A DNA stretch of 64,000 nt from Roseiflexus sp. (GTDB lineage Bacteria > Chloroflexota > Chloroflexia > Chloroflexales > Roseiflexaceae), in the NCBI GenBank assembly GCA_025062325.1, contig JANXAL010000045.1:62001-126000 (forward strand). The letters run 5' to 3'. Of the stretch, positions 37,644-54,428 are shown one piece after another. Each line of letters opens with the position of its first letter. Position 1 is the first letter of the stretch. Below the pieces are notes generated by a model that ran no database searches, was not told where the DNA came from, and saw nothing but the letters and a program-made list of their open reading frames with translations. The position numbers were made by a program, and so were the translations under genes.

Positions 37644-37652
37644 GCACAGAGG

Positions 37653-37680: not shown

Positions 37681-37698
37681 TCATATAGCCTTCGAGAC

Positions 37699-37788: not shown

Positions 37789-37793
37789 GTGAT

Positions 37794-37821
37794 GCGCCCC
37801 GGTTCAGGGGCGCCTTTTTTT
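37794..37821 (+). terminator. Rho-independent terminator after tRNA-Ser
   Basis: GCGCCCC and GGGGCGC pair around GGTTCA and are followed by CTTTTTTT. Lies 6 bp after the tRNA-Ser CCA. Confidence 0.85.
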
Positions 37822-37839
37822 GGCGGTATTCGCGGGTCA

Positions 37840-38029
37840 GGGGGTGAGAACCGAGAACCTAGAACCAAGAACTGAGAACTAAGAACCAAGCATTGAGAAC
37901 TAGGGGTTCGCCTACTAACCTGCCGCCTTCCCATTGGTCACCTTCCCACTGGTCGCCTCTAACCTTCCTACCTGCCGCCTGAAACCCGCGTCAGCGCCGC
38001 GCACATGGGCGCGCCCCTACGTTCAACGT
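37840..38029. repeat. GAACC(T)AAGAAC short repeats and CACCTTCCC decamers
   Basis: At 37840-37905 a run of AGAACCTAGAACCAAGAACTG-type units of 7-10 bp. From 37915 CCTTCCCATTGGTCACC and CCTTCCCACTGGTCGCC repeat in tandem. It ends with TTCAACGTTCAACCTTCAA, which overlaps the stop of the next minus-strand gene. No gene. Confidence 0.6.
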
Positions 38030-38656
38030 TCAACCTTCAATCGCCGTCGCCGTCACGGGCGCTGCTCGCGCGGCTGTGCGCGGCAACGTCAGCAACGCGA
38101 CGCTCAACCCGCTGGTCAGCACAATCGTCAGCCACATGATGAAGCCAAAGGTGACATGGCTCGCCAGCGGCGGATGATACCCCAACCCGTAATCAACGCC
38201 GAACGCCAGCACAAACCACCCGATGACTGCAAAACGCTGCGGAATGGTTACATCACCCAGGCAGGCAGCGAACAGGATCCCCTCGCAGAGCAACCCGATG
38301 TGCGTGACGAACAGGACGACCTCGAACGGATCGATGACGCCCGACCCCGTCCACTGGCGCAACCAGAACGCCAGCGTCCAGATGCCGTAGTGAATGCAGG
38401 CAAACGCTGTCAACGCATAAAAGAAGGACCAGCGCCTCCCGGCGCGCATACCGAAGAGCGCAATCGTGCCAAGAAACGCCGCTAGCGGGCAGTCGGGAAT
38501 GAAGGGCCATGCCCAGAGCGGCGATGCCGCCAGCATTGGACCATACCAGACCGCCGCGCCCCAGACCGCGCCGATCAGGTTGGCGACCACGCAACTCCAG
38601 AAGACGACTGGAGTGCGCAGGATAAACTCGAAGAGCCAGTACAGAAAACGGAGCAT
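38030..38656 (-). CDS. DUF1405 membrane protein
   Basis: A 208-aa protein with five or six predicted membrane helices. NLIGAVWGAAVWYG followed by PLWAWPFIPDCPLAAF is the mark of the DUF1405 (YpjA-like) family, whose function is unknown. The final codons (IEG) and stop lie inside a TTCAACCTTCAA repeat. It follows the acyltransferase gene by 3 bp and is therefore the third gene of a compact operon with the cyclophilin and acyltransferase. Confidence 0.85.
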   Translation of the reverse strand: MLRFLYWLFEFILRTPVVFWSCVVANLIGAVWGAAVWYGPMLAASPLWAWPFIPDCPLAAFLGTIALFGMRAGRRWSFFYALTAFACIHYGIWTLAFWLRQWTGSGVIDPFEVVLFVTHIGLLCEGILFAACLGDVTIPQRFAVIGWFVLAFGVDYGLGYHPPLASHVTFGFIMWLTIVLTSGLSVALLTLPRTAARAAPVTATAIEG

Positions 38657-38659
38657 AGG

Positions 38660-39271
38660 TCATAACATCCGCACCGGCACCCCGCCGACAAAGGCGCCCG
38701 GCGGTATGTCGCGGTTCACTAGGCTCATCGCCGAAACCGTCGCCCCATCGCCGATGACCACGCCGGGCAGGATGGTCGTGTTGGCGCCAATTGTGACATC
38801 ATGGCCGATCCAGACCGGTCCGCGCCGCCATTCGTGGCGGGTAAACTCGTGGCAGAGCACCGTCGAATTGTAGCCGATGATGCAGTTATCGCCAAGCGTA
38901 ATATCCTGGGGAAAGAAAATATCGAACATAACCATCAGCCCGACCGACGCATGCCTGCCGACTCGCATGCCGATGAGGCGGTACAGAACGTTCTTGAGCG
39001 CCAGCGAGGGCGTGTAGCGCGCCAGTTGAATGATGACCGCATTGCGCGCAACCCGCAGATGACCGCCAGTGACCTGCGGAAAGTACCAGAGCGCATTGTG
39101 TGGACCCGGCGAGGGAAATATCTGCAACCGCGATTTCCGGGTGGCGGACGTTCCCAGCCCATCAGGCCCAGGTTCAGCCAGAAGAGGGGCGCTCACCCCG
39201 GCAACCGGCGCCAGGCGCTGCCCGCGCGATGGCGCCGACAGGTGCGCAGCGCTCCTGAGCGAGTCGTCCAT
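38660..39271 (-). CDS. Left-handed beta-helix acyltransferase
   Basis: A 203-aa hexapeptide-repeat transferase similar to the WbbJ/CysE/LacA class. Hexad-type turns are seen in LGDNCIIGYNSTVLCHEF, VWIGHDVTIGANTTILPGVVIG (in part) and GDGATVSAMSLVNRDIPPG, with the catalytic His likely in LCHEFTRHEW. About 55 N-terminal residues (MDDSLRSAAHLSAPSRGQ...) are not typical and may be a linker; a later start is possible. Probably acetylates a sugar or envelope precursor. Starts 6 bp after the cyclophilin gene stop. Confidence 0.85.
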   Translation of the reverse strand: MDDSLRSAAHLSAPSRGQRLAPVAGVSAPLLAEPGPDGLGTSATRKSRLQIFPSPGPHNALWYFPQVTGGHLRVARNAVIIQLARYTPSLALKNVLYRLIGMRVGRHASVGLMVMFDIFFPQDITLGDNCIIGYNSTVLCHEFTRHEWRRGPVWIGHDVTIGANTTILPGVVIGDGATVSAMSLVNRDIPPGAFVGGVPVRML

Positions 39272-39277
39272 GCGTTG

Positions 39278-39769
39278 CTACAGGACCTCAATTATCACGT
39301 TTAAGATTTTATCGCCCTGGCGAATGGCGTTGACCACGTCCATCCCACTGACCACTTTGCCGAAGACGGTGTGCTTCCCGTCGAGGTGCGGCTGCGGCGA
39401 ATGGGTGATGAAAAACTGGCTGCCGTTCGTGTTCGGTCCGGCATTCGCCATCGACAGCACGCCGGTCTCGTGTTTGAGCGGATTCTTCTTCGGGTCAACC
39501 TCGTCTTCGAACTTATAGCCGGGACCGCCGCGCCCGGTGCCGGTCGGGTCGCCGCCCTGAATGACGAAGTTGCTGATCACACGGTGAAACGTGACGCCAT
39601 TGTAGAACCCTTCGTTCGCCAGGAAAACGAAGTTATTGACCGTTTTCGGCGCATAGGCGGCCGCCAGGTCAATGACAATCTCACCTTTGGAGGTCATCAT
39701 CCGCGCGCGGTACTGGCGCTGCGGATCGATCTGCATCGGCGGCGGGGACGACCATTGTTTGTGGGGCAT
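39278..39769 (-). CDS. Peptidyl-prolyl cis-trans isomerase, cyclophilin type
   Basis: A 163-aa cytoplasmic cyclophilin. Active-site features are [42 protein letters not shown] (20 residues) and [21 protein letters not shown] 39769 follows GAGGAACG; the frame extending to 39943 includes repeat DNA and was rejected. First gene of a three-gene cluster with the acyltransferase and DUF1405 gene (gaps of 6 and 3 bp). Confidence 0.95.
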
Positions 39770-39910
39770 AGCGCGTTCCTCGTTCACATACAAAGGGGCG
39801 GCGGTTAGTTGCCGCCCCGATATGCGCGAATCAATACGGAGTAGCAGAATTATAGCACAGGTTCGGCGATGGCGACTGCCGGGGTGCGAGTACGACCTGG
39901 CAAAAGGGGA

Positions 39911-39947
39911 ACACGGATTCACACGGATGCAACGGATTTCCACAGGT
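39911..39947. repeat. Half CACGGAT element, copy G
   Basis: AACACGGATTCACACGGATGCAACGG only; the right arm is missing. It lies just before a possible -10 TATAAT (39963-39968) that would serve the cas operon 52 bp further on. Confidence 0.6.
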
Positions 39948-40019
39948 CTCCCGGCAATAACGTATAATGGTCAACTAACGCGCTTCCTTCGCTTCTGTTT
40001 TTGTTCTCGTGACTGGACA

Positions 40020-41033
40020 ATGGCAGACATCCGCCTCAAAACCCTGACCCCGCTCTGGACCGGCGGCGTGGACGGCAGGGCGGACCGCGTCCACGAAACC
40101 GGCCTGCTCGGCAGCCTGCGCTGGTGGTATGAAGCGATTGTGCGCGGTCTGGGCGGAACGGCGTGCGATCCGAGCAGGGGTGAATGTCAGCTTGGCACTC
40201 AAATGTGCGATGTCTGCCAGCTCTTCGGCGCCACCGGCTGGCGACGGCGGTTTCGGCTTGCCGTGATCAATGATCAGACCGCTCCGCTCTGGCAGGGCGA
40301 TCAACTCCTGAACATCCGCCCGCCGGGGCGTAACCGGGGGTGGTTCCTGCCGCCGGGACGAATGGGCGAGTTCACCCTGCGGCTTGATAGCGACCAGGAG
40401 AGCATTGCGCGCGTGCTCGCGCTGCTGCGCTTCGTTGAGCGCTGGGGCAGCCTCGGCGCAAAGCCGCAACTGGGGTATGGGGTGGTGGAAATTCAGAATT
40501 GGGACGAGCTCAGGAGTCAACTGAACGGCTTCTCCTGGAAACAGGCAGCACAACAGCTGGCGCCCAACAAACAGACAAGCAATCCTGGTTTGCCCAACCT
40601 GTGCGACTTCGGCTTCTTCCGTTACCGCTTCCAACCGCCCGACCCGGCGTGGTGGAGTCGGATCGGCGGCTTCGAGCGCGTGACGATACAGGTGCGCCCA
40701 TTTGCCACCCAGACTGTGCCGGTCGCTCCGGCGCTCAAGAACGCCTGGCGTTTCCAGCACTGGCAGCGCGCATGGGGGGATGACCAGCGCTTCTGGGGGC
40801 GCGTCGCTGCTGATCGCATACGCGGCAGGGTTGCCGTAAGCTGGGCATATCCGCACGACAGCGGCTGGGAGATCCGCGGCTCGGCATGGCTGGCAGATGT
40901 GCGAGATGACCTCGTGTGGCAAATGTTGATCGACGCCAGGATCTGGAATACGACGCTGGGCGTGAGCGGGAAGCTGGAGACCGAGGGGCCGCAGAAGAAA
41001 GACGCCCTCCTGACATTTCTGGAGCGCATATGA
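40020..41033 (+). CDS. cmr1: Type III CRISPR RAMP protein Cmr1
   Basis: A 337-aa RAMP of the Cmr1 family, the subunit that caps the 3' end of a type III effector filament. It begins MADIRLKTLTPLWTGGVDG, followed by ETGLLGSLRWWYEAIVRGLGG and a Cys-containing CQLGTQMCDVCQLFGATGWRR (given here in part), the standard Cmr1 order. The conserved G-rich segment appears as WGSLGAKPQLGYG. ATG 40020 was chosen at the conserved start; a longer upstream frame crosses repeat DNA. The stop overlaps the next ATG (ATGA). First gene of an operon that runs to 50640. Confidence 0.92.
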   Translation: MADIRLKTLTPLWTGGVDGRADRVHETGLLGSLRWWYEAIVRGLGGTACDPSRGECQLGTQMCDVCQLFGATGWRRRFRLAVINDQTAPLWQGDQLLNIRPPGRNRGWFLPPGRMGEFTLRLDSDQESIARVLALLRFVERWGSLGAKPQLGYGVVEIQNWDELRSQLNGFSWKQAAQQLAPNKQTSNPGLPNLCDFGFFRYRFQPPDPAWWSRIGGFERVTIQVRPFATQTVPVAPALKNAWRFQHWQRAWGDDQRFWGRVAADRIRGRVAVSWAYPHDSGWEIRGSAWLADVRDDLVWQMLIDARIWNTTLGVSGKLETEGPQKKDALLTFLERI

Positions 41034-42508
41034 TCGAACGTATCCTGATCCACCGCTTCCGCGGCATCCGGCAGGGCGATCTGAAGGATCTGCGAAAGTT
41101 CAATGTCTTCATCGGACCGAACAACAGCGGCAAGACGGCGTTGCTCGAGTTGCTGTACCTCAGCGCCACCAGCGGCCGGCCCGTGCAGTTCATCCGCGAT
41201 GATTTGCTGCCCGCCGAAACCGGCGCCCTCAGAGCCGCCACGTCGGTGCGCACCGATCTGCTGGGGTGCGAGCCGTTGCCCTACCTGCGCCAGCGCCACG
41301 GCAAACGCGGCGAATGGTTGGACAATCCGGCAGTCGTGACGGCGGAAGGCGGACTGGAGATCGATCTGCGCCGCCTTCCGATAGATAAGGTCGCACCGCC
41401 GTGGTCAACCTTCCGCCTTGGCGCGCCGCTGCCGGAGTGGGGAGCAGAAGACCGCTTCACCCAGGACGACATCGCCCGGATTGCCATGGTGACGCTGGTG
41501 CATCCGCAGGTGCTCGACGACAGCATGATCCCGCCATGGATTGCGGGAGCAGTTAGACCTGTTGCGCCAGCCAGTGCGGAGTCCGTACCACAGACTGCAG
41601 GCGCCATGATTGCCGAACAGAGCCAATCGTATACCGCAACGGGCGAAGCGACTGCCGCCCAAAGAGCGACGCTTCAACAGGCTCACCGCGAGGCAGGCGA
41701 GCAGGAAGCAGAACGTGATAGCGCTGCTCTGGACTGGCACTACCTCTGGGAACCCGACTGGGTCTACCGCTGGGATCAGCGCCACCCGCTTGATCGCCTG
41801 GCGGTGTGGGTGACGCAGGGACAGCGCCCGCATCCTGAACGGGTTCTGTTCTACAACTTCACGACCGCTGGCGCCCATTTCACCGGCCAGTTTGCCAGAT
41901 GGGCATACCGCACCGTGACCGACTGGCACGAAAAGATAGCTGCCCGCATGGCGGACGTGTTTCCGGCGCTCAAAGATGCGAAAATCGAAGTGCTGGACGC
42001 ACCCGATAATCAAACGGGGCGCACCGGCTATGTGCGCTTCCCCGGTCGCACCCCGCTTTCCATCGACCACTTTGGCGACGGCGCGCGCCACGCCTTCAAA
42101 CTGCTCGCGCCGCTGATCGCCCTGGCTGAGACAGTGGACGATGCGAATCCGGGGTTGGTGTTGTGGGAGGAGCCGGAGGCATTCATGCACGCGGCGACCC
42201 TGGGACGCCTGCTGAATGTCGTGATCGACATCGTTGCCAGTAAGCCAATGCAGGTGTGCCTGACAACCCAGAGTCTGGAGGTTCTGGCCTGGCTGGCCCT
42301 CTATCTCGACGAACAGTCAGCTATCCAACCAGAGCAGGTCGGTACGTTCCATCTCAACCTGGAAGACGGAGAGTTGCGCGTGCGGCCATTCATCGGAAAA
42401 GCGCTGGGCGGATGGCTGCGCTTCTTTGGTGATCCGCGCCTGATCGAAGAGGAGGAACTGGCGTCACCGCTGACTCGCCTGCTGAGCGTTCGGGAGGAGC
42501 GCGAATGA
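41030..42508 (+). CDS. ABC/OLD-type AAA ATPase embedded in the cas operon
   Basis: A 492-aa SMC/ABC-like ATPase of the AAA_15/OLD type. Walker A GPNNSGKT (residues 29-36) follows the typical opening HRFRGIRQGDLKDLRKFNVFIG (in part). A large middle domain comes before a signature-like FGDGARHAFKLLAPLIA and Walker B VLWEEPEAFMHAAT. The usual TTHSxE His switch reads TTQSLE, with Gln in place of His. It has no TOPRIM domain of its own; the next gene supplies a TOPRIM-like protein with a 4-bp overlap. OLD, Gabija and PARIS use ATPase plus TOPRIM pairs in phage defence. Here ATPase and partner sit between two RAMP genes. Function is inferred. Confidence 0.88.
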   Translation: MIERILIHRFRGIRQGDLKDLRKFNVFIGPNNSGKTALLELLYLSATSGRPVQFIRDDLLPAETGALRAATSVRTDLLGCEPLPYLRQRHGKRGEWLDNPAVVTAEGGLEIDLRRLPIDKVAPPWSTFRLGAPLPEWGAEDRFTQDDIARIAMVTLVHPQVLDDSMIPPWIAGAVRPVAPASAESVPQTAGAMIAEQSQSYTATGEATAAQRATLQQAHREAGEQEAERDSAALDWHYLWEPDWVYRWDQRHPLDRLAVWVTQGQRPHPERVLFYNFTTAGAHFTGQFARWAYRTVTDWHEKIAARMADVFPALKDAKIEVLDAPDNQTGRTGYVRFPGRTPLSIDHFGDGARHAFKLLAPLIALAETVDDANPGLVLWEEPEAFMHAATLGRLLNVVIDIVASKPMQVCLTTQSLEVLAWLALYLDEQSAIQPEQVGTFHLNLEDGELRVRPFIGKALGGWLRFFGDPRLIEEEELASPLTRLLSVREERE

Positions 42509-43221
42509 CCGAGATTCTCGTCGTCACCGAAGGAGCAACCGAACGAGAAGTGGGCAGGGTTTTATATGAGCGACGCATACTTTCAAACCAGGCAGCGCCG
42601 AAACCACCCCAGTGGCGGAGCAATTTCGGCAGTCGTGAAGGATTCGATAACGTCGTGAAGGCGCTTAAAGACAGCGGTACGATCCTGAGCCTTCGCACAT
42701 CGAGCAACAAGGAGCGCCTGTTGCTCGTTTTCGACCAGGAGGACGCAGCCACGCCTCAGGATCGGGCCGTCCTGATTGGTCAGGAGCTCGGTCTTCAGTT
42801 CAGCCCGTATCAACCGCAGCACTACGATAACCTGTTCGAGTGTAACGAACCCAACCTCCACGTGGTGCTGCATGTGTCAAGCGCTGAAATACCAGGCATC
42901 AACCGCAGAGACTTCGACGGGTACATCCTTCAACTATTGCAGGGACAAAACAAAACGAGCTTAGCGAGCCGTCTGTCCAGTGTACAGGCGACTGCAATAA
43001 ACAATGTGCTGGCGAAAGCTGAACGGGAGATTCCTGATCTGATGCAACGCAATGGATTTCCATTGACCCACGCCAAATCACGGCTCTATGCCTATATCAC
43101 TGCGTTTCAGTTCTGTCAATCACACGTCTGGTTTGCCAGAGATGTCGTTCAATACGCCGATGAACAGGCATTGCGTCATGTGTTTGCGTCGCTCATTGCT
43201 GCATGGGATGCACTGATATGA
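42505..43221 (+). CDS. TOPRIM-like partner of the ATPase
   Basis: A 238-aa protein. ILVVTEGATERE at residues 4-15 has the Glu of the TOPRIM first motif (as in DUF4276/DUF4435 and OLD nucleases: EGxTE). RLLLVFDQEDAA near 71-82 has the acidic second motif (Asp77, Glu79/Asp80). The remainder (RDFDGYILQLLQ, SRLYAYITAFQF) resembles C-terminal parts of DUF4276-type proteins but was not assigned with certainty. Starts within the ATPase stop (ATGA) and ends within the next RAMP start (ATGA), so all are translationally coupled. A metal-dependent nuclease role is inferred from the fold. Confidence 0.65.
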   Translation: MTEILVVTEGATEREVGRVLYERRILSNQAAPKPPQWRSNFGSREGFDNVVKALKDSGTILSLRTSSNKERLLLVFDQEDAATPQDRAVLIGQELGLQFSPYQPQHYDNLFECNEPNLHVVLHVSSAEIPGINRRDFDGYILQLLQGQNKTSLASRLSSVQATAINNVLAKAEREIPDLMQRNGFPLTHAKSRLYAYITAFQFCQSHVWFARDVVQYADEQALRHVFASLIAAWDALI

Positions 43222-44234
43222 CCCACGACTTCCATGCCCGCTTTCCCTTCGTCCTGCAGGACGGCATCACCCAGTCGCTCGCTGTGCCCTGGCTGGCTGG
43301 CGAGACCAATCGCCTGCCGCCCGGCTGGCCCGACCTTGTGCAGATCGAAGATCCTGTTGCGCGGTTCGACGTTCTGGCGCAGGCGATCCTCACACCGCAC
43401 CGCGAGCGCGCCCGCAGCGGCACACGCGCCCAGAGCGGCGGCTACCGGCGCTGGATCGAGCAGGACGCGCAGGCGTTCATTGCGCAGCGACGGGCGTGGA
43501 TGCGACTGCTTGGGCTGGAACCGGCGCTGCCCGATCTGACCCGGCTCCCGCGCAGCGCGTGGGCGATCCAGTTTCCTTTCACCCTGCGCACGCCATATAT
43601 CAGCCGCGACGATCAGTCCTTTCACCTGCTCGACAATCCGCTCAAGAAGGAATGGGTCTTTAAGGTTCCCTACGTGGCTGCGCCGGGCTGGAAAGGCGCG
43701 CTGCGCGCAGCGATGCGCCGGATGCGCGGCTACACCGAGCTGGAACAGGAGGCGCAAGACCAGCAGATGGTGCGTCTGTTCGGCAACGTGAGGGGAGAAG
43801 AAGTCACATTTGCTGCCGGATTCCTGCATTTCTTCCCCACATTCTTCGACCGGCTCGGTCTGGAGGTGATCAACCCGCACGACCGCGTGAAGGGCGTCGG
43901 CGAGCGGGGACCGATCCTGTTTGAGTGCGCGCCAGCCGGAGCGCAGGGGACCTTTACGCTCCTGTACGTTCCCCTCGGTGCGCAGGTTGACGATGCGGAG
44001 ATTGCCAGCGACCTCGCAGCCGTCGCCGGCGGCATCCGCCGCATGCTCGTCGATGACGGCTTTGGCGCAAAGACCAGCAGCGGATTCGGCACGGCGGAGG
44101 AAACGTTGCCGGGTGAAGGTCAACTTGCCGTCGCGACTGCCCCGCTGCACCCGCCCGAACGGAGAATGTTCCGCTCCCTGACTGAACTGCTTGAACGGGC
44201 AACAGCAGCAGCGCAGGCGCTGCGCGGAACGTAG
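43218..44234 (+). CDS. RAMP-superfamily type III effector subunit (Cmr6/Cas7-like)
   Basis: A 338-aa RAMP. TPYISRDDQSFHLLDNPL is followed by VPYVAAPGWKGALRAAMRRM, matching the PGSSLKGALR helix of Cas7/Cmr6. PHDRVKGVGERGPILFE and the C-terminal Gly-rich GFGAKTSSGFG complete the family pattern. The N-terminal 100 residues are unusual, and it could also be grouped as an uncharacterised DUF324 member. It is coupled by ATGA to the TOPRIM-like gene. The operon then carries a 260-bp gap and the MNT insertion before Csx11. Confidence 0.8.
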   Translation: MTHDFHARFPFVLQDGITQSLAVPWLAGETNRLPPGWPDLVQIEDPVARFDVLAQAILTPHRERARSGTRAQSGGYRRWIEQDAQAFIAQRRAWMRLLGLEPALPDLTRLPRSAWAIQFPFTLRTPYISRDDQSFHLLDNPLKKEWVFKVPYVAAPGWKGALRAAMRRMRGYTELEQEAQDQQMVRLFGNVRGEEVTFAAGFLHFFPTFFDRLGLEVINPHDRVKGVGERGPILFECAPAGAQGTFTLLYVPLGAQVDDAEIASDLAAVAGGIRRMLVDDGFGAKTSSGFGTAEETLPGEGQLAVATAPLHPPERRMFRSLTELLERATAAAQALRGT

Positions 44235-44303
44235 GATACGCTCTGCATGGCTTCGCCAACAGGCTGACGCACAGGCGCAAAGCATATGATGGCGCGCTTC
44301 GCC

Positions 44304-44345
44304 TGATCCGCGAAAATCCGTCTCAATCCGTGCAGATCCGTGTGC
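44304..44345. repeat. Right half of a CACGGAT element, copy H
   Basis: CGCGAAAATCCGTCTCAATCC then GTGCAGATCCGTGTGCC. It directly abuts the truncated HEPN fragment that begins at 44346. Confidence 0.7.
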
Positions 44346-44945
<600 letters not shown>

Positions 44946-44953
44946 GGGCAATC

Positions 44954-47782
44954 ATGTATCAACTCGACATTCTCGCGCAACACCGCGATGCGCTGCTGCT
45001 AGCGGAGGTGGCGGGGTGGGTGCATGACTGGCAGAAGTGCATTGATATGAAGGCGGCGTCCGATTGGGAGAAAGGTTCTAAAGTAGATAAAAGTAAGATA
45101 CATCAATGGAAGAAAAGAGGTAGCATCTTCAATCCAGGAGACTTCTCTTCCTGTCTCCAAAATCTGACTCTTAATCTTTGTGCGAGCCATGGCGATCTCA
45201 AAACAATAGTTGAGATAGGGAGTAAGCCTTCAAGAGCGAGACAATCCAACAATCTTCTCGAACAGGTTTTGGGAAAATCACACGACGCCGCCCATGTAGA
45301 AAAAGAACTTGGAGACCGCGAAAATGTACACCTCGCTACGGATTGGCTCTCATCACCATTTGGAATGGAAGATGTACAGCCTGATAACCTCCTCGCACGT
45401 CTCCTGGGCAAACCAAAAAGTTTTCTTCAGGGACTCACATCTCAGTCCAGGAGCGATTTTCTCGCCGCACTGAGAGAAGTCTTTTCCGAAGCGTGGGGCG
45501 ACACACGCCGTCCAATCAACGAAGTCACGCTCTGGGACTGGTCTTCGATTGTTGCGCCACTGTACAAAGCGGAACTGGCTCGTTGCGTTCTCACCAGCAC
45601 TAGCCGTCAATATAGCGATATTGCCTGGCGCCTCCTCAGCGTCCGCATCAATGGACTGGACTATCTGCTTGCTGTCTCCAGCATTCCCGACCTGCTAGCG
45701 CGCAGGGAATTGTTGAAGGATGCCTGGGATCGGGTGCAACGCCTGCTAGAAGAGACCTACCCTATGGGGCTTGAGGTCTATCGGGATGAAAACGGACCGG
45801 TCTTCGTCGTGCCGGATATTGATAATCTTCTTCAAAATGCACAGGTCAAAGGCGCTCCTTTGGAAAAGCTCATTCTGTCGGAGTTTGCTCAAGGTACTGT
45901 GCGAGGAAATGCTGCTCTCGCCATTTCTGGAGAAATCATTCCTGAACCATTCGCCGATCCGAAACCCTGGAAAGGTCAGCCAGCGTCGCAGGAACTGCCG
46001 CCAATTGCAGACCATCTGAAGCGCCAGCCCGCAACTGCCGCCGATCCGGTCTGGCTCGATAGTATCTGGCAGAACCACTACGATGAGATCTGCACCGTCT
46101 GCGGTCTGCGCCCGCAGGGACCAGGCGCAAAAGCCAAAGGGCGCAATCTGTGCGATGTGTGCGAGCAACGTCGCGCCGATCGCGCCAGAGACTGGCGGAC
46201 TCAGTGGCTGTCTACCACCATCTGGCTCGATGAGGTCGCTGATGACAATGGCCGCCTTGCGCTGATCGTCGGTTCGTTCGACCTGACGCACTGGCTGTCC
46301 GGCGATTGCGTGCGTTCGCTGCTGGTTCGCGAACCGAACGATCAGAATGGCCGTCACGCTGATAAAGTCGCCAAAAACCCATCCTTCGCCCGTTTGCGTC
46401 GCATCTGGGAAACCACCCGCGCCTTCTGGCAGGAAGTCGGTCCGACCGACGACACGCGACGGTTGCAGGACTCGGTCATCGGGCAGCATACCGGACCTGC
46501 CGGATCCCGTCTGGAGATATCGGGCCGGTTGCAGCCCGCAACGCCAGGCGCCCGTCTTGAACCATATCACGCTTATGAGCTTGTCCTTCCTGGCGACGTC
46601 AGCCTCAGCGCGCTCTGGGATGGGCAACAATTCATCACGTGTGATCATCTGCCCTATTTCAGCAAGCGAATGCGATCAGATATCCAAGAGGCGCTGCGAT
46701 CTGGTCTCGAAATCAAAATCGAAGTTCCTGGCGGTTACGGCACGACCAGAACGTATTGGGGGACCGTTACCGTCGCTTCAACGTCGAGATCAAGCAGCCC
46801 CTTCATTCGCGCCGTCCCCCTCCTCGCCGAGCCGCGCGTCTTTCTGGCGCTTGTTCCCGCCGACCGGGCGCTCGAGGTCGTCGGCGCGATCAAGACGAAG
46901 TACGAGCGCGAGATGGGCAAGGTGCGCAACCGGTTGCCACTGCACCTCGGCGTGGTCTTTGCGCCATGGCGCGCGCCGCTGCGCGCCGTGCTCGACGCCG
47001 GTCGGCAGATGCTGCGCCAGCGCGCCAGTGCACAGGGATGGGAAGTCGTCTGTTGCGCGCGCAAGACCGTGAACAAGGGCGACCCGCTCCCTTCGCGCTT
47101 TCATCCCGACCAGCAGGGGCAATTCGCCGAATGGTTCGAGGTGACGCTCAAAAACGCCGATCACCGGGTGACGTGGCATGTTCCCGCCCTCATGGGCGAT
47201 GGGCAGACCGAAGACCTGTGGTATCCGTATGTGTTCCTCGACGTGAGCGCCGAACCGACCGACCGCACCCGTCGTTTCCAGGCGCGCAATCCGTGGAGCG
47301 GGCAGGACGGCTGGCTGATCCATGCCTCCGAACTGCAACCAGGCGACCGGGTCTTTTTCACCCCGTCCACCTTTGACTTTGAGTTCCTCGATACGACGGC
47401 GCGCCGCTTCGATGTGCACTACGACGATCAGGGTCGCCGTCCGCGCCGCACGCGCCCGTTCTATCTGGAAGACCTGGAACGGCTTGAGGAGTTGTGGGGC
47501 GTGATGAAGCGCCTGTCGCGCACCCAGCGCCATCAGGTCGTCCGCACCATCGAGGAGACGCGCGAACTCTGGTTTGGCGCGGATCATGAATGTCGCTCAC
47601 CGTCCGATCCAACCTTCAGGCAATTCGTCGCCGATACGCTGGCGGGCGCGGAATGGCCGAAGGAGAAGCCGTGGAAAGCGCTGCCTGATCGACAGCGCGA
47701 GCAACTGATCGAGTCCGGCGTGCGCGGCGAGTTGACCGACTGGTTTGAACTGCACGAGCAGATTCTCAAGGAGGAGGAATGA
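44954..47782 (+). CDS. csx11: Csx11-family (Cas10-like) type III large subunit
   Basis: A 942-aa protein in the position of Cas10/Cmr2. The N-terminal LAEVAGWVHDWQKCID has an HD-like dyad (His-Asp). A zinc-ribbon pair CTVCGL...LCDVCEQ lies near 375-400 (the two CxxC). Next is the palm-like RLALIVGSFDLTHWLSGD, typical of Csx11 in place of the Cas10 GDVSGIQ. No GGDD cyclase motif was found, so cyclic oligoadenylate synthesis is doubtful. The C-terminal half has VPLLAEPRVFLALVPADRAL and many basic residues. ATG 44954 follows GAGGG; a TTG at 44942 is possible. The stop overlaps the cmr4 start (ATGA). Confidence 0.82.
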   Translation: MYQLDILAQHRDALLLAEVAGWVHDWQKCIDMKAASDWEKGSKVDKSKIHQWKKRGSIFNPGDFSSCLQNLTLNLCASHGDLKTIVEIGSKPSRARQSNNLLEQVLGKSHDAAHVEKELGDRENVHLATDWLSSPFGMEDVQPDNLLARLLGKPKSFLQGLTSQSRSDFLAALREVFSEAWGDTRRPINEVTLWDWSSIVAPLYKAELARCVLTSTSRQYSDIAWRLLSVRINGLDYLLAVSSIPDLLARRELLKDAWDRVQRLLEETYPMGLEVYRDENGPVFVVPDIDNLLQNAQVKGAPLEKLILSEFAQGTVRGNAALAISGEIIPEPFADPKPWKGQPASQELPPIADHLKRQPATAADPVWLDSIWQNHYDEICTVCGLRPQGPGAKAKGRNLCDVCEQRRADRARDWRTQWLSTTIWLDEVADDNGRLALIVGSFDLTHWLSGDCVRSLLVREPNDQNGRHADKVAKNPSFARLRRIWETTRAFWQEVGPTDDTRRLQDSVIGQHTGPAGSRLEISGRLQPATPGARLEPYHAYELVLPGDVSLSALWDGQQFITCDHLPYFSKRMRSDIQEALRSGLEIKIEVPGGYGTTRTYWGTVTVASTSRSSSPFIRAVPLLAEPRVFLALVPADRALEVVGAIKTKYEREMGKVRNRLPLHLGVVFAPWRAPLRAVLDAGRQMLRQRASAQGWEVVCCARKTVNKGDPLPSRFHPDQQGQFAEWFEVTLKNADHRVTWHVPALMGDGQTEDLWYPYVFLDVSAEPTDRTRRFQARNPWSGQDGWLIHASELQPGDRVFFTPSTFDFEFLDTTARRFDVHYDDQGRRPRRTRPFYLEDLERLEELWGVMKRLSRTQRHQVVRTIEETRELWFGADHECRSPSDPTFRQFVADTLAGAEWPKEKPWKALPDRQREQLIESGVRGELTDWFELHEQILKEEE

Positions 47783-48765
47783 CCGTCTGGAAGCGTCAGC
47801 GTTACCTCTTCATCACTCTCGATCCGGTGCACGTGGGAACCGGCGGCTACCGGTTGGGACGGGTGGACAACAGCATTGCCCGCGAACCGGGGACGCGCGT
47901 GCCCAAGATCCCCGGCACGAGTCTCCACGGCGCCGCCCGCGCCTATGCCGCGTACCTCTACGAAACGCCCGAAGCCGCCGGGCAAAACCACGATCAGGTC
48001 AAGGAGCCAGACAAAAATCCGGTGTGCTACACCTTCGGCTCTATCAGTCAGGGCAAAGCATACTCCGGCGTGGTCAGCATCTTTGACGCACACATCATCC
48101 TCTTCCCGGTCTATTCGATGGTGGGACCGGTGTGGGTCAGCACGGTGGAGCGGCTGGCGGAAGCCGGGTTTATCGTCACAAAAGACGGGCAGGAACAGAA
48201 GCAGACGCCGCCTGACCTTGAGCTGAATACTGCGCTGCTCACATGGCAACGCAAAACCTCGCTTACGCTTAACCTGGGCTGGCTGATGGTCGCCTTTGGC
48301 GGGCAGGCGACCGTGGAAGCGCCGTCTGCGTGGCAGGGCGACCGCTGGAATGCAGTGAAGGGGCACATCGCCCTCGTCCAGGAGGCGCTCTTCAGCCATA
48401 TCGTCAACAGCAATCTCGAAGTGCGCACTTCGGTGAGCATTGATCCGCAGACCGGCGCGGCTCAGGAAGGTTTGCTGTTCACCTACGAAGCCATCCCCCG
48501 CGCAACGTTCCTCACTGTCGATGTGGTGCTTGACGATTATCGCGCAAATGAACAGGGATGGTTGCCGGGAACCGTGAGTAAGACCGGCAAGGGCAACAAT
48601 CTCCCCGGCGATCCCTGGTCTGGTCCGCTCGATGTCGTGCGGGCCGGTTTCGGTTTGATCGAATGGCTCGGCATCGGCGGCATGGGCACGCGCGGCTTCG
48701 GGCGGATGGCAGTTGTGGGACAGCCGCGCGAGGAGACGTATGGTGACGGAAGGACTTCTTTGTGA
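47779..48765 (+). CDS. cmr4: Type III RAMP Cmr4 (Cas7 backbone subunit)
   Basis: A 328-aa Cas7-type backbone subunit. TLDPVHVGTGGYRLGRVDNS includes the loop Asp (D30) equivalent to the target-RNA cleaving residue in Cmr4 proteins; IAREPGTRVPKIPGTSLHG follows, then the AARAYAAYLY helix. The C-terminal G-rich motif is WLGIGGMGTRGFGRM. The insertion of KPDKNPVCYTFG-like residues is normal for the family. It overlaps the csx11 stop by 4 bp. Confidence 0.92.
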   Translation: MTVWKRQRYLFITLDPVHVGTGGYRLGRVDNSIAREPGTRVPKIPGTSLHGAARAYAAYLYETPEAAGQNHDQVKEPDKNPVCYTFGSISQGKAYSGVVSIFDAHIILFPVYSMVGPVWVSTVERLAEAGFIVTKDGQEQKQTPPDLELNTALLTWQRKTSLTLNLGWLMVAFGGQATVEAPSAWQGDRWNAVKGHIALVQEALFSHIVNSNLEVRTSVSIDPQTGAAQEGLLFTYEAIPRATFLTVDVVLDDYRANEQGWLPGTVSKTGKGNNLPGDPWSGPLDVVRAGFGLIEWLGIGGMGTRGFGRMAVVGQPREETYGDGRTSL

Positions 48766-48789
48766 GGCTGACGCAAAGGCTCATAATGG

Positions 48790-48831
48790 GACACGGATAT
48801 GGACGGATCGGGACGGATGCTCACGGATTGG
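48790..48831. repeat. Half CACGGAT element, copy I
   Basis: ACACGGATATGGACGGATCGG and GGACGGATGCTCACGGATTGG between cmr4 and the Cmr5-like gene; left-type arm only. Confidence 0.65.
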
Positions 48832-48844
48832 GTGAGGGGCAACA

Positions 48845-49333
48845 ATGGCAAATCAGCATGTGCTCAATCTCGACTATCTGGCGGCGAGTCGAGCGCAGGC
48901 GATCATTCGTCGGATAGTCAAAAACAAGGAAACAGAGCGCGGCAAGCCTGAAGATGAACGTAAATCCGAACCGCAACTGGCTCGTGAAACTGATAACGCC
49001 GTCACCAAAGCGCTCGGCGTGCTGCAGGAGCACGGGGTGTACGCCTGTTTTCTCTACCTCCTGGCGAAAGAAAAAGACCTCGGAGGGATCATCGTCGATG
49101 AAATGCTCACTGCCTTGCAGGAGTTGAAATTTGACTGGAACAAGCCAATGAAACAAGGTCAAACCGACCTGACGCCAGAAGTTGTATTGAAGCACATAAG
49201 CGATAATGTCACCCGTGATCTTGAGCGTCTGTTGCTGGCGAAAGAGGTGCTGGAGCAGACGCTGATCTACGCCCGTTATGGCGCGAAGGCGTGCGATGTG
49301 AGTGAGTCCCAAGGGTTTGCACAAAAAGGCTGA
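48845..49333 (+). CDS. cmr5: Cmr5-like small subunit (Cas11)
   Basis: A 162-aa, mostly helical protein. SRAQAIIRRIVKN, ALGVLQEHGVYACFLYLLAK and LAKEVLEQTLIYARYGAKA match the Cmr5 layout, including the final helix. The small subunit binds along the crRNA-target filament. Length is slightly above the typical 125-150. The last residues (SESQGFAQKG) are weakly conserved. It lies 79 bp after cmr4 with a repeat half-element between. Confidence 0.8.
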   Translation: MANQHVLNLDYLAASRAQAIIRRIVKNKETERGKPEDERKSEPQLARETDNAVTKALGVLQEHGVYACFLYLLAKEKDLGGIIVDEMLTALQELKFDWNKPMKQGQTDLTPEVVLKHISDNVTRDLERLLLAKEVLEQTLIYARYGAKACDVSESQGFAQKG

Positions 49334-49812
49334 CGCCAGGATGCGAAGCTTTCAGGGGTAGGTTCGTTGGACATGTGCATGTGTTTTGTGCAGTGCGAGG
49401 CGTTGTTTCACCTCATCCCCCCAACCTCCTTCTCCCATGCTCTCAAGGGTAGAGTTGTTCAGGTGCAAAGGGCGTTTTCAGCGTCCCGACGCCTGTCTTT
49501 CCCTCATCCCCCCTCCCCCTTCTCCCACAGGGGGAGAAGGGGGAGGGTACGCATCCTAACGCCCAAAACAGGCGATGCAACAGAAGGGCTTGCCAAAAAA
49601 TCGACACTTGTGAGCTTCTCCTGCCCTCCTTCGCCCTCCGCGTGCGGAGGGCTGGGAGGAGAAGGGGGCATGTGGTTGTCCTGATGCCCGAAACGGAGAT
49701 ACCACGCAGAAGCGCGCCGGAAAATCCGCCCCCGTAGGGGGGTGCGAAGACACAGAGTGTGGAGTATTCGAGGTTTTGCGTTCTTGTGTCACATGTTCCA
49801 AGGACTACTGCA
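49334..49812. repeat. Repeat-filled gap inside the cas operon
   Basis: A 479-bp gap. At 49511-49548 CCCTCCCCCTTCTCCC pairs with GGGAGAAGGGGGAGGG around ACAGG. At about 49615-49665 there is a second CTTCTCCTGCCCTCC/GGAGGAGAAGG inverted repeat. Related CCTCATCCCCCC phrases occur near 49410. Such hairpins might weaken expression of the last gene. No coding signal. Confidence 0.65.
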
Positions 49813-50640
49813 ATGACCTGGCAGGCATACGAGGTGATTTTCCGCTTGCGCACGCCGCTCCACGTCGGCTGGCGCAAGGTGAGCAACCTGCAGATGACGC
49901 AGCATTACCTTACCGGGCGCAACATCTGGGGCGCGCTCACCATGCGCCTGACCCGTGATGCTGCGCCGGGACCGGCGACCAACCCCGGGGCGTACCGGCA
50001 GATCGGCGATCAGGTTCACCAACAGCTTGCGTTGACCTACTTCTACGCGGCGCTCCAGGAAGGCAACCGCTACGATGTCGTCTTGCCCTGGGAAAACGAG
50101 AGCGCCTTCCGCCGCCGCTTTCTCTCCAGTTACGCCAGCGCAGCGTTGACCTACCCGCAACACTCGGCGGATGAGGGGTTGCTGCACGAGGTGGAGTTCA
50201 TTACGCCTGCGACCAGGGATGACGGGAAGCCGGTGTTCCTCAAGGGGTACATCTTCGAGCGGCAGGAGTGCGACCTGGCGTGGCGTCAGGCGCTCGTACG
50301 GCTGCAGATCGGCGGCGAGCGCGGCTACGGTTGGGGTGACCTCGCACTGATCGGCATCACGCCGGTCGACGACGGCAGACTGTTTGATCGCGTGACGTTC
50401 GATGGAAGCGGCGCGCGCCCGGTCATTCACGTGCAGCCACCTGCGCGCCTGCTGGCGCACACCTTCGCCGATGGCGTGGACGCCTCCGGCGCCGTCGAGC
50501 CGCTCGTTGGACGGGAGTGGCAGTCGTATGCCGGGCAGCGCGTGGCATACACCGGCGTCGCCTTCGCTCCCGGCGCTGTCGTGGAACGGGCACAGCGTTT
50601 CATAGTGGAACAGTTCGGCATCTGGGTGTGCCAGGAGTAG
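49813..50640 (+). CDS. RAMP-superfamily Cas5-like type III subunit
   Basis: A 275-aa RAMP. It opens WQAYEVIFRLRTPLHVGWRK, then the HYLTGRNIWGALTMRLTR segment that is the RAMP substrate helix. The Gly-rich loop is RLQIGGERGYGWGDLAL. Position and motifs fit the Cas5-like (Cmr3-type) subunit that binds the crRNA 5' tag; the family name is inferred. ATG 49813 follows AAGGA. The longer frame from 49759 is not supported by homology. Last gene of the operon. Confidence 0.78.
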   Translation: MTWQAYEVIFRLRTPLHVGWRKVSNLQMTQHYLTGRNIWGALTMRLTRDAAPGPATNPGAYRQIGDQVHQQLALTYFYAALQEGNRYDVVLPWENESAFRRRFLSSYASAALTYPQHSADEGLLHEVEFITPATRDDGKPVFLKGYIFERQECDLAWRQALVRLQIGGERGYGWGDLALIGITPVDDGRLFDRVTFDGSGARPVIHVQPPARLLAHTFADGVDASGAVEPLVGREWQSYAGQRVAYTGVAFAPGAVVERAQRFIVEQFGIWVCQE

Positions 50641-50715
50641 GACGGACCGTTCCTGACAGGAAGCGCGTTGAGCTACGCGCCTGGTCCACAGGGCTAGTCA
50701 TACTGGACTGAGCAG

Positions 50716-50746
50716 CGTAAGGGCGGGTCTCAGACCCGCCCTTACG
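50716..50746. terminator. Perfect 15-bp inverted repeat after the cas operon
   Basis: CGTAAGGGCGGGTCT pairs base for base with AGACCCGCCCTTACG around a single C. It lies 75 bp after the Cas5-like stop. The right arm continues as GCTTCGTCGATC, which is repeated at about 50810-50833 at the end of the pseudogene. The function may be transcript-end formation in both directions, although there is no U-run. Confidence 0.55.
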
Positions 50747-50815
50747 CTTCGTCGATCCACCTGCAATGAGCGCGTCCCAGAGCGGGAGCGCTTTGTGAGA
50801 ATCCGAGACCCGCCC

Positions 50816-51721
50816 TTACGCTTCGTCGATCAACCTCCTCAACTCCTTCTTACTCAGCCCGGCGAGGAAGTCGCGCAGTTGCAGGTGCCAGAAGGCGAAG
50901 CCGCCGCCGACGCGCCGCATCAGCAGGAGGTCGCTGGCGTCGTTGAGCAACGCGGCGTAATTCCAGGGAGCGACGCCCGCATCCCAGAGCGCGACGCGCA
51001 GGGCAACGTGGCGGATGCAGGCCATGCCGCCGTGGTACAGGGCAGTAATCGTAAAGGACAACAGCAGCAAAGATACGGCGACCTCAATTCCGGCACGAAA
51101 CAAGTCCGCAGAGAGCAACGAGACGATGACAACGAGCAGCAATGGGACTGCTGCCCCCACGACGCCAGCCCGCATGGCATGCCACGCTGATCGGTAGACG
51201 CCTTCGTTTGGTCGCCGCCGGTCGCGATCGTCAATCTGATCACTGACCCACCCGCCCGCCCGCCCGCCAGCCCGCCCGCCAGCCCGGAGAGCGCTCGATA
51301 CGTTCGCTTCGCGCGATTATCAGGCAGCCAGTCAGGTTGCAGCCGTTCGATGTAAAACACTGGGCGTGTCGGGGGGTATCGGACGGGAACGGTGCGGCTG
51401 TTCGAGGCGGAGACCCGGTCTCGGCAGCACAGCCTGCGGCTGGCTCTTGAGGCTGAGCGGAATCCGTTGACGGCGTTCGGGGAGCCGGTTATCGAGCTGT
51501 CTTTTGATCTCCGCCTGAACGTTCCTGAGCAGCAGCGCGCGCTGGCGCGCCAGATCGGGTCCCTCGCGTTGCGCCAGGGCGGTCAACGCCAGGGCGAGCA
51601 GAAGGAGGATGCCAGTGATGGACCATGCCAGCCAGGGGTGGGGCCGCAACCACTCAGGGAGCGAGTCGGTGGCAATGTTGACGACAATACTCCCCACAAA
51701 TGAAACGATGGTCAGAAGCAA
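50816..51721 (-). pseudogene. Decayed membrane-anchored NACHT STAND protein
   Basis: Three fragments of one gene. The 5' part (51332-51721, TTG start) has helices IVSFVGSIVVNIAT and LAWSITGILLLLALALTALA, then LRNVQAEIKRQLDNRL. The middle (about 51360-51180) reads FYIERLQPDWLPDNRAKRTY and GLAGGLAGG repeats in another frame. The 3' part (50816-51175) holds two helices, NYAALLNDASDLLLMRRVGG and FAFWHLQLRDFLAGL, typical of the end of the transmembrane NACHT proteins seen in cyanobacteria and Chloroflexi. The P-loop NTPase core is absent, so the gene suffered a large deletion plus frameshifts. Confidence 0.65.
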
Positions 51722-51802
51722 CGCGATCTACCTGGCATTCAGCGCTGGCAAGCGCATCGTGCTGCCCCCTTCTCACCAGCCTCTGCGATGATCTGGTCTA
51801 TA

Positions 51803-52373
51803 ATAGCACACGGATGCGCACGGATCGCGACGGATGCGCACGGGTTGAGCATCTTCCATCGCACAGGTCTGCGTCAATCCATCGCATCCGCGCGCAATAG
51901 CACACGGATGCGCACGGATCGCGACGGATGCGCACGGATTGCCTCCTAGCACCCCGATCCGTATCAATCCGTCATATCCGCGCGCAATAGCACACGGATA
52001 TGCACGGATCGTGACGGATGCGCACGGATGGATCGCCTTCCATCACACAGATCTGCGTCAATCCGTCGTATCCGCGTGCGCGATAGCACACGGATGCGCA
52101 CGGATCGCGACGGATGCGCACGGATGGATCGTTTTCTCCTACACATATCCGCGTTAATCCGTCGTATCCGCGTGCGCAATAGCACACGGATATGCACGGA
52201 TTGCGACGGATGTGCACGGATGGATCGCCTTCCATTACACAGATCTGCGTCAATCCGTCGTATTCGCGCGCAATAGCACACGGATGCGCACGGATTGCGA
52301 CGGATGTGCACGGGTTGCCTCTCAGCACCCCGATCCGTGTCAATCCGTCGTATCCGCGTGCATCCGTGTCCCC
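51803..52373. repeat. Tandem array of six CACGGAT palindrome units
   Basis: Units start at ATAGCACACGGA: 51803, 51897, 51987, 52083, 52179 and 52273 (periods 94, 90, 96, 96, 94). Each has a left arm (CACACGGATGCGCACGGATC and ACGGATGCGCACGG), a variable centre of about 25 bp, then a right arm (CGTCAATCCGTCGTATCCGC). Left and right arms are complementary, so each unit can form a hairpin. The last right arm ends CATCCGTGTCCC, as the single copies do. The rest of the 51722-52487 gap holds GTTCAACCTTCCCACCTGCAAC decamers and a polypyrimidine tract. Confidence 0.85.
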
Positions 52374-52487
52374 TATGACAAATCGTGCGTGACTCCCTGC
52401 TGTCCACACTGGAACGGGACGTTCAACCTTCCCACCTGCAACCTGCAACCCTTCACACCTCTTGCCCCTCGCCTCTTGCCTCCCGCG

Positions 52488-54428
52488 TTACGGTCGATTG
52501 GTCAGCACCAGCGTTTCGGCTGGCGGCAGGTTGCGGATCTCCACATACGACGCGCCATTGCGCTCCCGAACCGGCAGGCGCTGCCCGACCGGGTGCGGTC
52601 CGGCGTAGCCCAGCGGGTCGGCGGATTGCGCCGTGTTCAGGATGACGGTCAGCGTGTCGCCGGGACGGTTCAGCGCCGCATCGACCACAACATCGCCGCC
52701 GCGCGCAGCGACGCCGTTTGGGTTGATCACGCACAGCGCCTCTTCGTCGTCGAGGATGCGCGACCAGGCGATGATTTCTCCGGCTGGCGGAAAGGCGAAC
52801 GGCTGGTTGAAATTCGAGATCGGACGCAGGTACTGGCGTCCGTGGCGCAGCACCGGGTAGGCGGCGCGCAGCGCGGTCAGCGCCGCAATCCGCACGTAGA
52901 CCGGGAAGCGCTCATCGAAACAGTGGCGTCCGGCAGTGCCAAAGGGACCGAACCCCGGCAGCGACGTATCGCGCGCCTGCGGGTCGAGTCCGGCGCGCCC
53001 CGAGGCGCGCGGGTGAAGCGGACCAAACATCGCCTCGCGCAGGTAGCGGTCGGCGCGCCCCCACTCCGGCAGCCACCGCCGCTCCGACGGCTCAGGACCG
53101 CCGAGCGCCTGTTCGGTGCCGTAGTAGATGCACGGAATGCCGAGCGTGAAGAGTTGCAGCGCCGTCGCCACCGCCGCCTGATGCTGCGACATCACATCGG
53201 TCGAGAAGCGGAGTTTCGCGCCGAAGACGTGATCGTGGTCATCGAGGATCGAGACGTGCCGGCTGCCGAGGTTGCGGTGCGAACCCATCACTGCCGATCC
53301 GGGCGCGAACCCGTCGAAATAGGCGCGCGCTGGCGCCAGACCCTTCGCCACATTCCCCAGCGCCAACCGCATCTCGCCGATGTCCAGCGCAGCATTCAGG
53401 TTGCGCTCCAGCGCATCCAGGTAGCGCGTCGCCGCAAAATCGCCGCCTGCCACCTCGCCAACTAGGAAGAAGTTGGTCTTCCCCAGGTTGGCGGCGAACT
53501 CCTTGATCGTGCCGCAGAAGTTGCGCGCCTGCTCGAACGAGACATGTTTGAGCGTGTCGAGGCGGAACCCGTCGCAGTCGGTGAGCGCAATCCAGTATTT
53601 GTAACAGAGCGCCAGGTCGGTCAGCGCACCCGGCGCGTCGAGATCGATGTCGCGCAGCGTGAAGAAATCGGAGCGCTTGTGCTCCGCCGCCGGATCATTG
53701 AGGTCGCCAGCCCCCAGGTCGCCGGCGCCAGCCCGCGTGTAGTACTCGATGTTGCGCACCTCATCGGGCCAGGCGGCATCATCGACATCGGGAACGCCAA
53801 GGAGCGGCGCGCCGGTCGCGTCCACCCAACTGCCGAATGGATAGCGTCCGGTGGTGTAGCGCGGCATCTCCGCGCCGCCGGGAACATCAGGCGGGTAGCG
53901 CCAGTTGGGACCGGAGTGCTGGAAGACAATGTCGAGCAGCACGCGCATCCCGCGTTCGTGCGCGGCGCTCACGAGATCGACCAGGTCCTGGCGCGTGCCG
54001 AAGCGCGGATCGACATCGAGAAAATCCTGGATCGCGTAGCCGTGATACGTGTTCAGATGACCGCGCTGCTTGCAGACCGGGCTGAGCCACAGGGTGGTGA
54101 CGCCCAGCCGTTGCAGGTAGCCGAGTTTCGAGATGACGCCGCGCAGGGTGCCGCCCTGAAACCGTTCGCCGCCCGACTCAGCCCAGCGGTCCCAGCGCCA
54201 CGGCTCACCGCTGGGCAGCGCCGGTCGCGCCGCCGCCAGGTAGCGCCGGTCGAGCAATGGGCGAGTGTCTTCCTGACCGTCGCTGAACCGGTCGACGAGG
54301 AGAAAATAGATCACCTCATCGCGCCAGTCGACCGGCGAGGGGTAGTATGCCACGCGACGCGGGAGTTGCAGCGAGCGCCGGACGCTCGGCGGGCGCGGCC
54401 GGCTCAGGGTATCACGGATGAAGTCCAT
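52488..54428 (-). CDS. Alpha-amylase family glycosyl hydrolase (GH13)
   Basis: A 646-aa GH13 enzyme with no clear signal peptide. Conserved regions: DIVFQHS (region I), GFRLDTLKHV (II, nucleophile Asp), FFLVGEVAGG (III, Glu) and SILDDHDHV (IV, transition-state Asp). The start of the barrel is VIYFLLVDRFSDG with GGTLRGVISKLGYLQRLGV. The C-terminal beta domain (EALCVINPNG, DTLTVILNTAQSADP) is normal. It probably hydrolyses or transglycosylates alpha-1,4-glucans or trehalose-like sugars; exact specificity is not clear. Start ATG 54428. Confidence 0.92.
   Translation of the reverse strand: MDFIRDTLSRPRPPSVRRSLQLPRRVAYYPSPVDWRDEVIYFLLVDRFSDGQEDTRPLLDRRYLAAARPALPSGEPWRWDRWAESGGERFQGGTLRGVISKLGYLQRLGVTTLWLSPVCKQRGHLNTYHGYAIQDFLDVDPRFGTRQDLVDLVSAAHERGMRVLLDIVFQHSGPNWRYPPDVPGGAEMPRYTTGRYPFGSWVDATGAPLLGVPDVDDAAWPDEVRNIEYYTRAGAGDLGAGDLNDPAAEHKRSDFFTLRDIDLDAPGALTDLALCYKYWIALTDCDGFRLDTLKHVSFEQARNFCGTIKEFAANLGKTNFFLVGEVAGGDFAATRYLDALERNLNAALDIGEMRLALGNVAKGLAPARAYFDGFAPGSAVMGSHRNLGSRHVSILDDHDHVFGAKLRFSTDVMSQHQAAVATALQLFTLGIPCIYYGTEQALGGPEPSERRWLPEWGRADRYLREAMFGPLHPRASGRAGLDPQARDTSLPGFGPFGTAGRHCFDERFPVYVRIAALTALRAAYPVLRHGRQYLRPISNFNQPFAFPPAGEIIAWSRILDDEEALCVINPNGVAARGGDVVVDAALNRPGDTLTVILNTAQSADPLGYAGPHPVGQRLPVRERNGASYVEIRNLPPAETLVLTNRP

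Follow-up and report, generated by a model that had tools for sequence, protein, structure and literature searches.

How can a type III CRISPR complex that has lost its cyclase protect the cell beyond the cleavage performed by its HD domain and Cmr4? The question is raised by a type III-C operon in a 64,000-nucleotide stretch of Roseiflexus sp. DNA (the window from this point on), in which genes for an OLD-type ATPase and a Toprim protein are embedded among the cmr genes (Table 1). The gene order is cmr1, ATPase, Toprim, cmr6, nucleotidyltransferase, csx11, cmr4, cmr5 and cmr3. As in other type III-C systems, a Csx11 (Cas10c) protein that scores above its cut-off and has an inactive cyclase site is accompanied by matches to Cmr1, Cmr3, Cmr4, Cmr5 and Cmr6; the window operon differs in adding the ATPase-Toprim pair. 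Cyclase loss of Csx11 is ordinary in that it has already been published for III-C, and it is the neighbouring pair that makes this locus a new III-C variant.

Table 1. Features of the III-C operon (positions are those of the window).
Feature	Position	Strand	Evidence
Cmr1 (RAMP)	40020..41033	+	TIGR01894, 58.6 bits vs cut-off 28.65, window 40044-41030
OLD/AbiEii-type ATPase, 492 aa	41030..42508	+	AAA_21, AAA_15; motifs; alignment of 9
Apparent swapped cassette: ATPase last fifth (~100 residues) + Toprim	42190..43217	+	blastn gap, 60-base bins
Toprim protein (predicted), 238 aa	42505..43221	+	AF2 model, structural matches, acidic motifs
Cmr6 (RAMP)	43218..44234	+	PADLOC Cmr6, 2.1e-68
MNT-type nucleotidyltransferase (MntA antitoxin-like)	44495..44848	+	NTP_transf_2, 1.3e-11
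Csx11 / Cas10c, III-C large subunit	44954..47782	+	TIGR02682; AF2 model; Csm1 9g9e match
HD dyad VHDWQK, Csx11 residues 23-28	45020..45037	+	motif located in sequence
Zinc pairs CTVC (380-383) + CDVC (400-403) of Csx11	46091..46162	+	sequence/alignment
palm2 first strand, LIVGSFDLTHWLSGD, from residue 437	46262..46306	+	AF2 model, alignment
AEPRV turn replacing GGDD (palm2), residues 625-629	46826..46840	+	alignments, hhalign
Cmr4 backbone subunit	47779..48765	+	TIGR02580, 92.9 bits vs cut-off 87
Cmr5 small subunit	48845..49333	+	PADLOC Cmr5, 8.2e-42; CAS-III-C model, 2.3e-33
Cmr3	49813..50640	+	PADLOC Cmr3, 8.8e-82, on longer ORF from 49759

The large subunit had originally been predicted to be Csx11, and this identification is borne out by a TIGR02682 match of 441.5 bits (cut-off 248.95) and by a PADLOC match to Cas10c / CAS-III-C (E 1.1e-231). 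Its 942-residue reading frame runs from ATG 44954, with TTG 44942 as an alternative start, to a stop at 47782, and the HD-like dyad and zinc CxxC pairs that had been noticed in it were both located. The AF2 model (pLDDT 87.3, pTM 0.91) matches Csm1 (9g9e) with Z 19.4 over 574 aligned residues, spanning residues 12-942 at 4.4 A and 12% identity. This near-full-length match, together with AEPRV at the GGDD register, indicates a complete Cas10 fold minus the cyclase motif.

Profile alignment against Csx11 and Cas10 and structure prediction, the checks proposed with the original prediction, together give a Cas10 fold in which the palm2 turn reads AEPRV, with no GGDD. GGDD, already noted as missing, does not occur in the window Csx11, nor does any searched variant, and palm2 carries none of the motifs listed for the signalling Cas10s of types III-A and III-B. 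The palm stretch cited along with the missing motif, LIVGSFDL, is indeed present, but it forms the first strand of palm2 rather than the GGDD position. In the AF2 model the AEPRV turn lies between strands 621-625 and 629-635, and the GGDD register falls on EPR plus the next residue (EPRV), both by alignment to solved Cmr2 and by hhalign. The hhalign comparison used 23 GGDD-bearing Cas10s of the phylum (probability 82, E 1.1e-5, GGDD opposite EPRV); having been chosen for containing GGDD, these fix the register and are uninformative on GGDD frequency. A profile of 25 Csx11 sequences matched solved Cas10 chains weakly (E 0.025-0.035; five distinct sequences, of which four bear the name Cmr2), with two GGDEF-domain proteins at E ~0.5, and its alignment to solved Cmr2 places the family sequence LAEPRTFMALVPADKALEV opposite YAGGDDVLAILPVDKALEV. 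GGDD is found at the palm2 turn of none of the 25 aligned Csx11 proteins, which instead carry AEPR or variants such as ASPD, TEPK and ISPL around an invariant Pro; the Asp in the first strand of palm2 varies among them. GGDD-like strings in two loci (GGED and DGDD in L065, KGDD in L039) were left uncounted because they lie outside the palm2 turn in the alignment.

Published work points the same way: III-C stands among the subtypes with an inactivated polymerase/cyclase domain in the text of Makarova 2025 (PMC12669027), and the III-C account printed in Hoikkala 2024 agrees with an absent cyclic oligoadenylate (cOA) signal. With the register alignments, these data lend good support to the original prediction that the Csx11 complex would make no cOA. 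That Csx11 might signal through another site is very improbable. The best candidate, the turn YRDENG (residues 276-281, window 45779-45796), sits at the palm1 hairpin of the AF2 model and keeps Tyr276 in 25/25 and Asp278 in 24/25 sequences; nothing links it to catalysis, and the loss of palm2 GGDD in every aligned member, the unconserved first-strand Asp and an operon free of matched cOA-sensing domains all speak against it, so that we retain it as a minor rival. Searches of NCBIfam, Pfam and PADLOC matched no cOA-binding or cOA-sensing domain in the ATPase, the Toprim protein or the operon. On other contigs of the same genome there are three further Cas10s with GGDD, which could conceivably signal to the pair; a fourth other PF22335 match, on contig C70, proved to be a GGEEF protein rather than a GGDD Cas10.

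The RVD motif of Cmr4 (D30) aligns with VVD of solved Cmr4, and RVD is also found in all five pair-bearing loci that were looked at out of the eight others. Among 36 Csx11 rows, comprising whole and partial sequences, 34 span the HD stretch, which reads HD in 22, HM in 9 and HN in 3. The HD Asp is missing in two of the nine loci with the pair (L031, HM; L053, HN), both of which keep the Cmr4 RVD, so that the pair and Cmr4 remain the evident effectors there. A divergent Csx11 branch (L039, L040, L045, L047 and L054) reads HM instead of HD and has a palm2 Pro turn without Glu-Pro-Arg; genomes G238, G395 and G193 each hold a member of this branch plus a second Csx11 locus. As for the guide, a search for runs of at least four exact 20-base repeats at a spacing of 50-85 found none, either in the window or across another 85,912 bases of the contig that holds it (C97, covered from base 2,001 onward), and neither Cas1 nor Cas6 (PF01867, PF10040) has a match on C97. 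Three Cas1 and two Cas6 places occur on other contigs of the genome, which suggests that crRNA is supplied in trans. An Rfam scan of window positions 36000-56000 returned two tRNAs only.

The two added genes are tightly built into the operon. The cmr1 start at 40020 is in frame, and three 4-base ATGA overlaps join cmr1, ATPase, Toprim and cmr6: the ATPase start overlaps the cmr1 stop, and Toprim shares 4 nt with ATPase and another 4 nt with cmr6. With longest-ORF starts, the Toprim-cmr6 overlap in the eight other loci is 4 bases in six, and 1 and 19 in the rest. The ATPase matches AAA_21 (1.6e-14) and AAA_15 (6.8e-11) on a longer ORF from 40916, and carries Walker A GPNNSGKT at residue 29, FGDGARH at 348 and LWEEPE at 378. 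It matches 89 PADLOC families, with AriA as the best model (8.5e-19).

At E <= 1 the window Toprim protein matches nothing in Pfam, NCBIfam or PADLOC, and it has no match to DUF3226 or OLD-like_TOPRIM even at E up to 5. Matches to these two families were obtained at that threshold for three of the nine aligned Toprims each (best 1.9e-5 and 0.002, respectively). The acidic motif E...DxD/DxE is present, with EGATE at residue 9 and FDQED at residue 76; E9, E13 and D77 are invariant in 9/9, and the second acidic residue is D in six and E in three. The best AF2 model reached pLDDT 89.5 in a set of five ranging from 55.8 to 89.5, two being poorer (74 and 56). Foldseek returned one confident match, 2p62, a protein of unknown function. 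By VIA the model scores Z 13.1 to 2p62, 9.0 to BpOLD (6nk8), 9.0 and 8.0 to PARIS (8ux9 and 8v46), 8.4 to XccOLD, 7.5 to retron Eco2 and 6.8-6.9 to GajA, where the OLD/AriB scores of 8-9 barely exceed the tool's stated background of 7-8. The solved protein, PH0156, presumably belongs to DUF3226; its EGKTDE and RDVDE align to EGATE and FDQED, at E 0.28 by sequence. All eleven top structural rows belong to 2p62 or OLD-type Toprims, and with E9 and D77 unchanged in all nine sequences the case for an OLD/AriB-like Toprim fold that keeps the acidic motif is convincing; nuclease activity is predicted.

To see how the pair is distributed, 44 neighbourhood loci (L031-L074) were collected by likeness to Csx11. 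The pair is present in 8, cmr1 precedes cmr6 without it in 28, and the slot is not visible in the other 8. The 28 pair-less loci represent 27 distinct ones (L072 repeats L044; L070 and L071 come from one MAG). Counting the window, the pair therefore occurs in 9 of 36 distinct III-C loci, one of them archaeal, and its absence from 27/36 means that it is not essential to III-C. It fills the slot between cmr1 and cmr6 in the window and seven others, that is, in all eight loci with both flanks visible. In the archaeal locus (L069, a Methanosarcinales archaeon) the pair precedes cmr6, and cmr1 is not visible because the contig begins at the ATPase; this locus shows that the pair has spread beyond one phylum. 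On the Csx11 tree the pair occupies 9 of 14 rows in a single group with weak support, and it requires three to four changes.

A sample of 400 genomes of the phylum was also searched, scoring up to seven Toprim or three ATPase candidates per genome among the matches listed. The csx11 gene was found in 22/400. Among the matches listed, the Toprim profile hits eight genomes, always in III-C operons: seven of the eight coordinates fall inside csx11 operons examined, and the eighth (G335:C25) is L073 by coordinates and contig number, a locus that holds cmr1, ATPase, Toprim, cmr6 and the csx11 start. The Toprim-csx11 association over the 400 genomes (Fisher p 2e-11) ignores relatedness and owes much to shared descent, since all eight Toprim genomes belong to one order. 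At E <= 1e-30 the ATPase profile hits nine genomes among the matches listed, the same eight and G274, in which the ATPase follows, at a contig edge, a cmr1 that is 59% identical by the Cmr1 search (E 4e-118); no csx11 was found in G274. No pair outside cmr operons was seen in the 400 genomes, again among the matches listed. Searches of mobile elements returned no Toprim match in plasmids, nothing better than E 0.097 in PHROGs for three Toprims, and, in viral contigs, no Csx11 pattern match and two short ATPase matches only. In L073, from a Roseiflexus MAG, the csx11 frame is interrupted by a stop after roughly residue 107 (L073:10001-10507), so the gene may be broken or misassembled.

These distributions bear on a rather unlikely account, in which the pair would be no more than a common defence or toxin module riding in the operon without contacting the III-C complex. 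III-C loci do collect defence genes, for they also contain HEPN and MNT genes and some adjoin restriction or type I genes. Such a rider would hardly be expected to occupy an identical slot wherever both flanks are seen, to lack any other context in the sampled phylum, or to have an ATPase body that co-varies with Cmr6, as described below.

Comparison of close relatives divides the pair at a different place from its gene boundary. Against L043 and L073, residues 1-375 of the window ATPase are 85-86% identical and residues 381-492 only 36-37%, while the Toprim proteins are 23-25% identical. Against L037, from another family, identity is 68% over the ATPase body, 80% over its C-terminus and 67% over the Toprim. 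At the DNA level, blastn aligns the window with L073 at 83.5% up to 42211 and at 88.6% from 43214, with no match over 42212-43213. In 60-base bins against L073 and L043 the interior is 28-58% and the flanks 73-95% identical; identity jumps from 52-53% to 90-93% at the cmr6 start, giving a sharp downstream edge, and the upstream edge is gradual (93, 73-75, 57-58 and 50%). Pairwise identities over nine loci correlate at r 0.86 between ATPase body and Cmr6 and at r 0.94 between ATPase C-terminus and Toprim; the cross correlations of 0.46-0.54 likewise exceed chance (p 0.004-0.015), and the nine loci cannot be treated as independent. Because the inner block differs between conserved flanking DNA, Toprim and the last fifth of the ATPase can be regarded as one unit, which sequence comparison indicates is exchanged as a cassette between close relatives, with the ATPase body staying with the cmr genes. 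The cassette swap and the limitation of the pair to cmr operons in the sampled phylum make the effector question testable.

The account that we favour, at even confidence, is that of a cyclase-dead III-C operon whose ATPase and Toprim form a split effector of OLD type, docked and triggered without a messenger. Its docking on the complex, its trigger and its substrate are matters that we infer. According to the original prediction, activation of the two proteins would require direct contact. This is reasonable and gains support from the operon embedding and the cassette swap. Cmr1 and Cmr6 form the end of Cmr complexes far from Cas10, and the pair, being coded between their genes and overlapping both, could dock at that end. 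In the proposed sequence of events, crRNA provided in trans would guide the Cmr complex to a phage transcript, which Cmr4 would cut, and in the window locus DNA may be cut by the HD domain. With its body anchored at the Cmr1-Cmr6 end, the ATPase would sense target binding and release or activate the Toprim nuclease held by its C-terminal part, and the freed nuclease would damage nucleic acid or tRNA. Target binding as the trigger is proposed by analogy with PARIS, in which, according to the account in PMC12409363, AriA holds AriB and frees it upon phage-protein binding, whereupon AriB cuts tRNA.

The same precedent suggests a PARIS-like guard, which would stay silent as long as III-C is intact and fire in response to a phage inhibitor of the complex or to a phage protein bound by the ATPase. 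We judge this unlikely, yet it fits the data nearly as well as triggering by target binding: release of AriB is set off by a phage protein in the PARIS account (PMC12409363), ATPase and Toprim are split genes here as in PARIS, and a nuclease swapped without its ATPase body is equally compatible. A guard could act elsewhere, however, and among the matches listed for the 400 genomes every pair lies in a cmr operon; the 4-base overlaps on both sides also suggest coordinated dosage. Returning to the docked, target-triggered effector, a broader and more tentative idea, held at somewhat less than even confidence, is that III-C may have swapped its second messenger for a hard-wired relay, with a docked ATPase body and a nuclease that serves as a plug-in cassette between lineages. 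The pair would also tie type III CRISPR systems to the defence family of OLD and PARIS.

The pair resembles several known systems without coinciding with any. Like PARIS, it encodes an OLD-type ATPase and, directly after it, a Toprim in separate genes, with AriA as the best ATPase model and the PARIS fold scores given above; unlike PARIS it sits inside a cmr operon, and its Toprim, with no PADLOC hit at E <= 1, is like AriB by fold only. An OLD-type ATPase and a Toprim are shared with the OLD family and Gabija GajA. Here, in contrast to OLD class 1, they are two genes in the window and the eight further loci rather than one fused protein, and the UvrD-like helicase gene of Gabija is absent beside the window pair, whose neighbours are cmr1 and cmr6. 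PH0156, structurally the closest to the window Toprim, differs in being a solved protein of unknown function. The gene sets of types III-G, III-H and III-I differ from that of the window operon. Loss of Cas10 signalling is shared by these three types in the text of Makarova 2025 (PMC12669027), whose main text lacks the word Toprim, and III-C loci appear in the account of Hoikkala 2024 as having no known effectors. In Altae-Tran 2023, Toprim is explained in the legend of a figure with a panel B on new CRISPR adaptation-module associations. Full-text searches of the open-access literature found no printed account of an ATPase-Toprim pair in III-C. Work by Shah in 2019 and by Shmakov in 2018 reportedly covers type III accessory genes and may list those of the pair.

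Other genes vary within and around these operons. Between cmr6 and csx11, five loci (L038, L043, L048, L063 and L073) have a HEPN gene or a HEPN-nucleotidyltransferase fusion (Pfam HEPN). The corresponding interval of the window (44235-44953) has an intact MNT gene, which scores 1.9e-10 against NF047752, under the cut-off, and at the HEPN spot only two short ORFs (44340-44498 and 44802-44945); neither has a HEPN match, and they are possibly HEPN remnants. Just downstream of the window operon, positions 51795-52362 contain five imperfect tandem copies of about 95 bases, four of them 61-93% identical to the reference, with a spacing that is not CRISPR-like. Genome G238 carries tandem III-C operons (L037 and L045) with csx11 genes about 11 kb apart and an extra AAA_21 ATPase gene (L037:4593-5702) between them. 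In other cases III-C operons adjoin type I-D genes (L042, L068) or I-A-like genes (L044, L074), and L042 also has an array of about 53 repeats.
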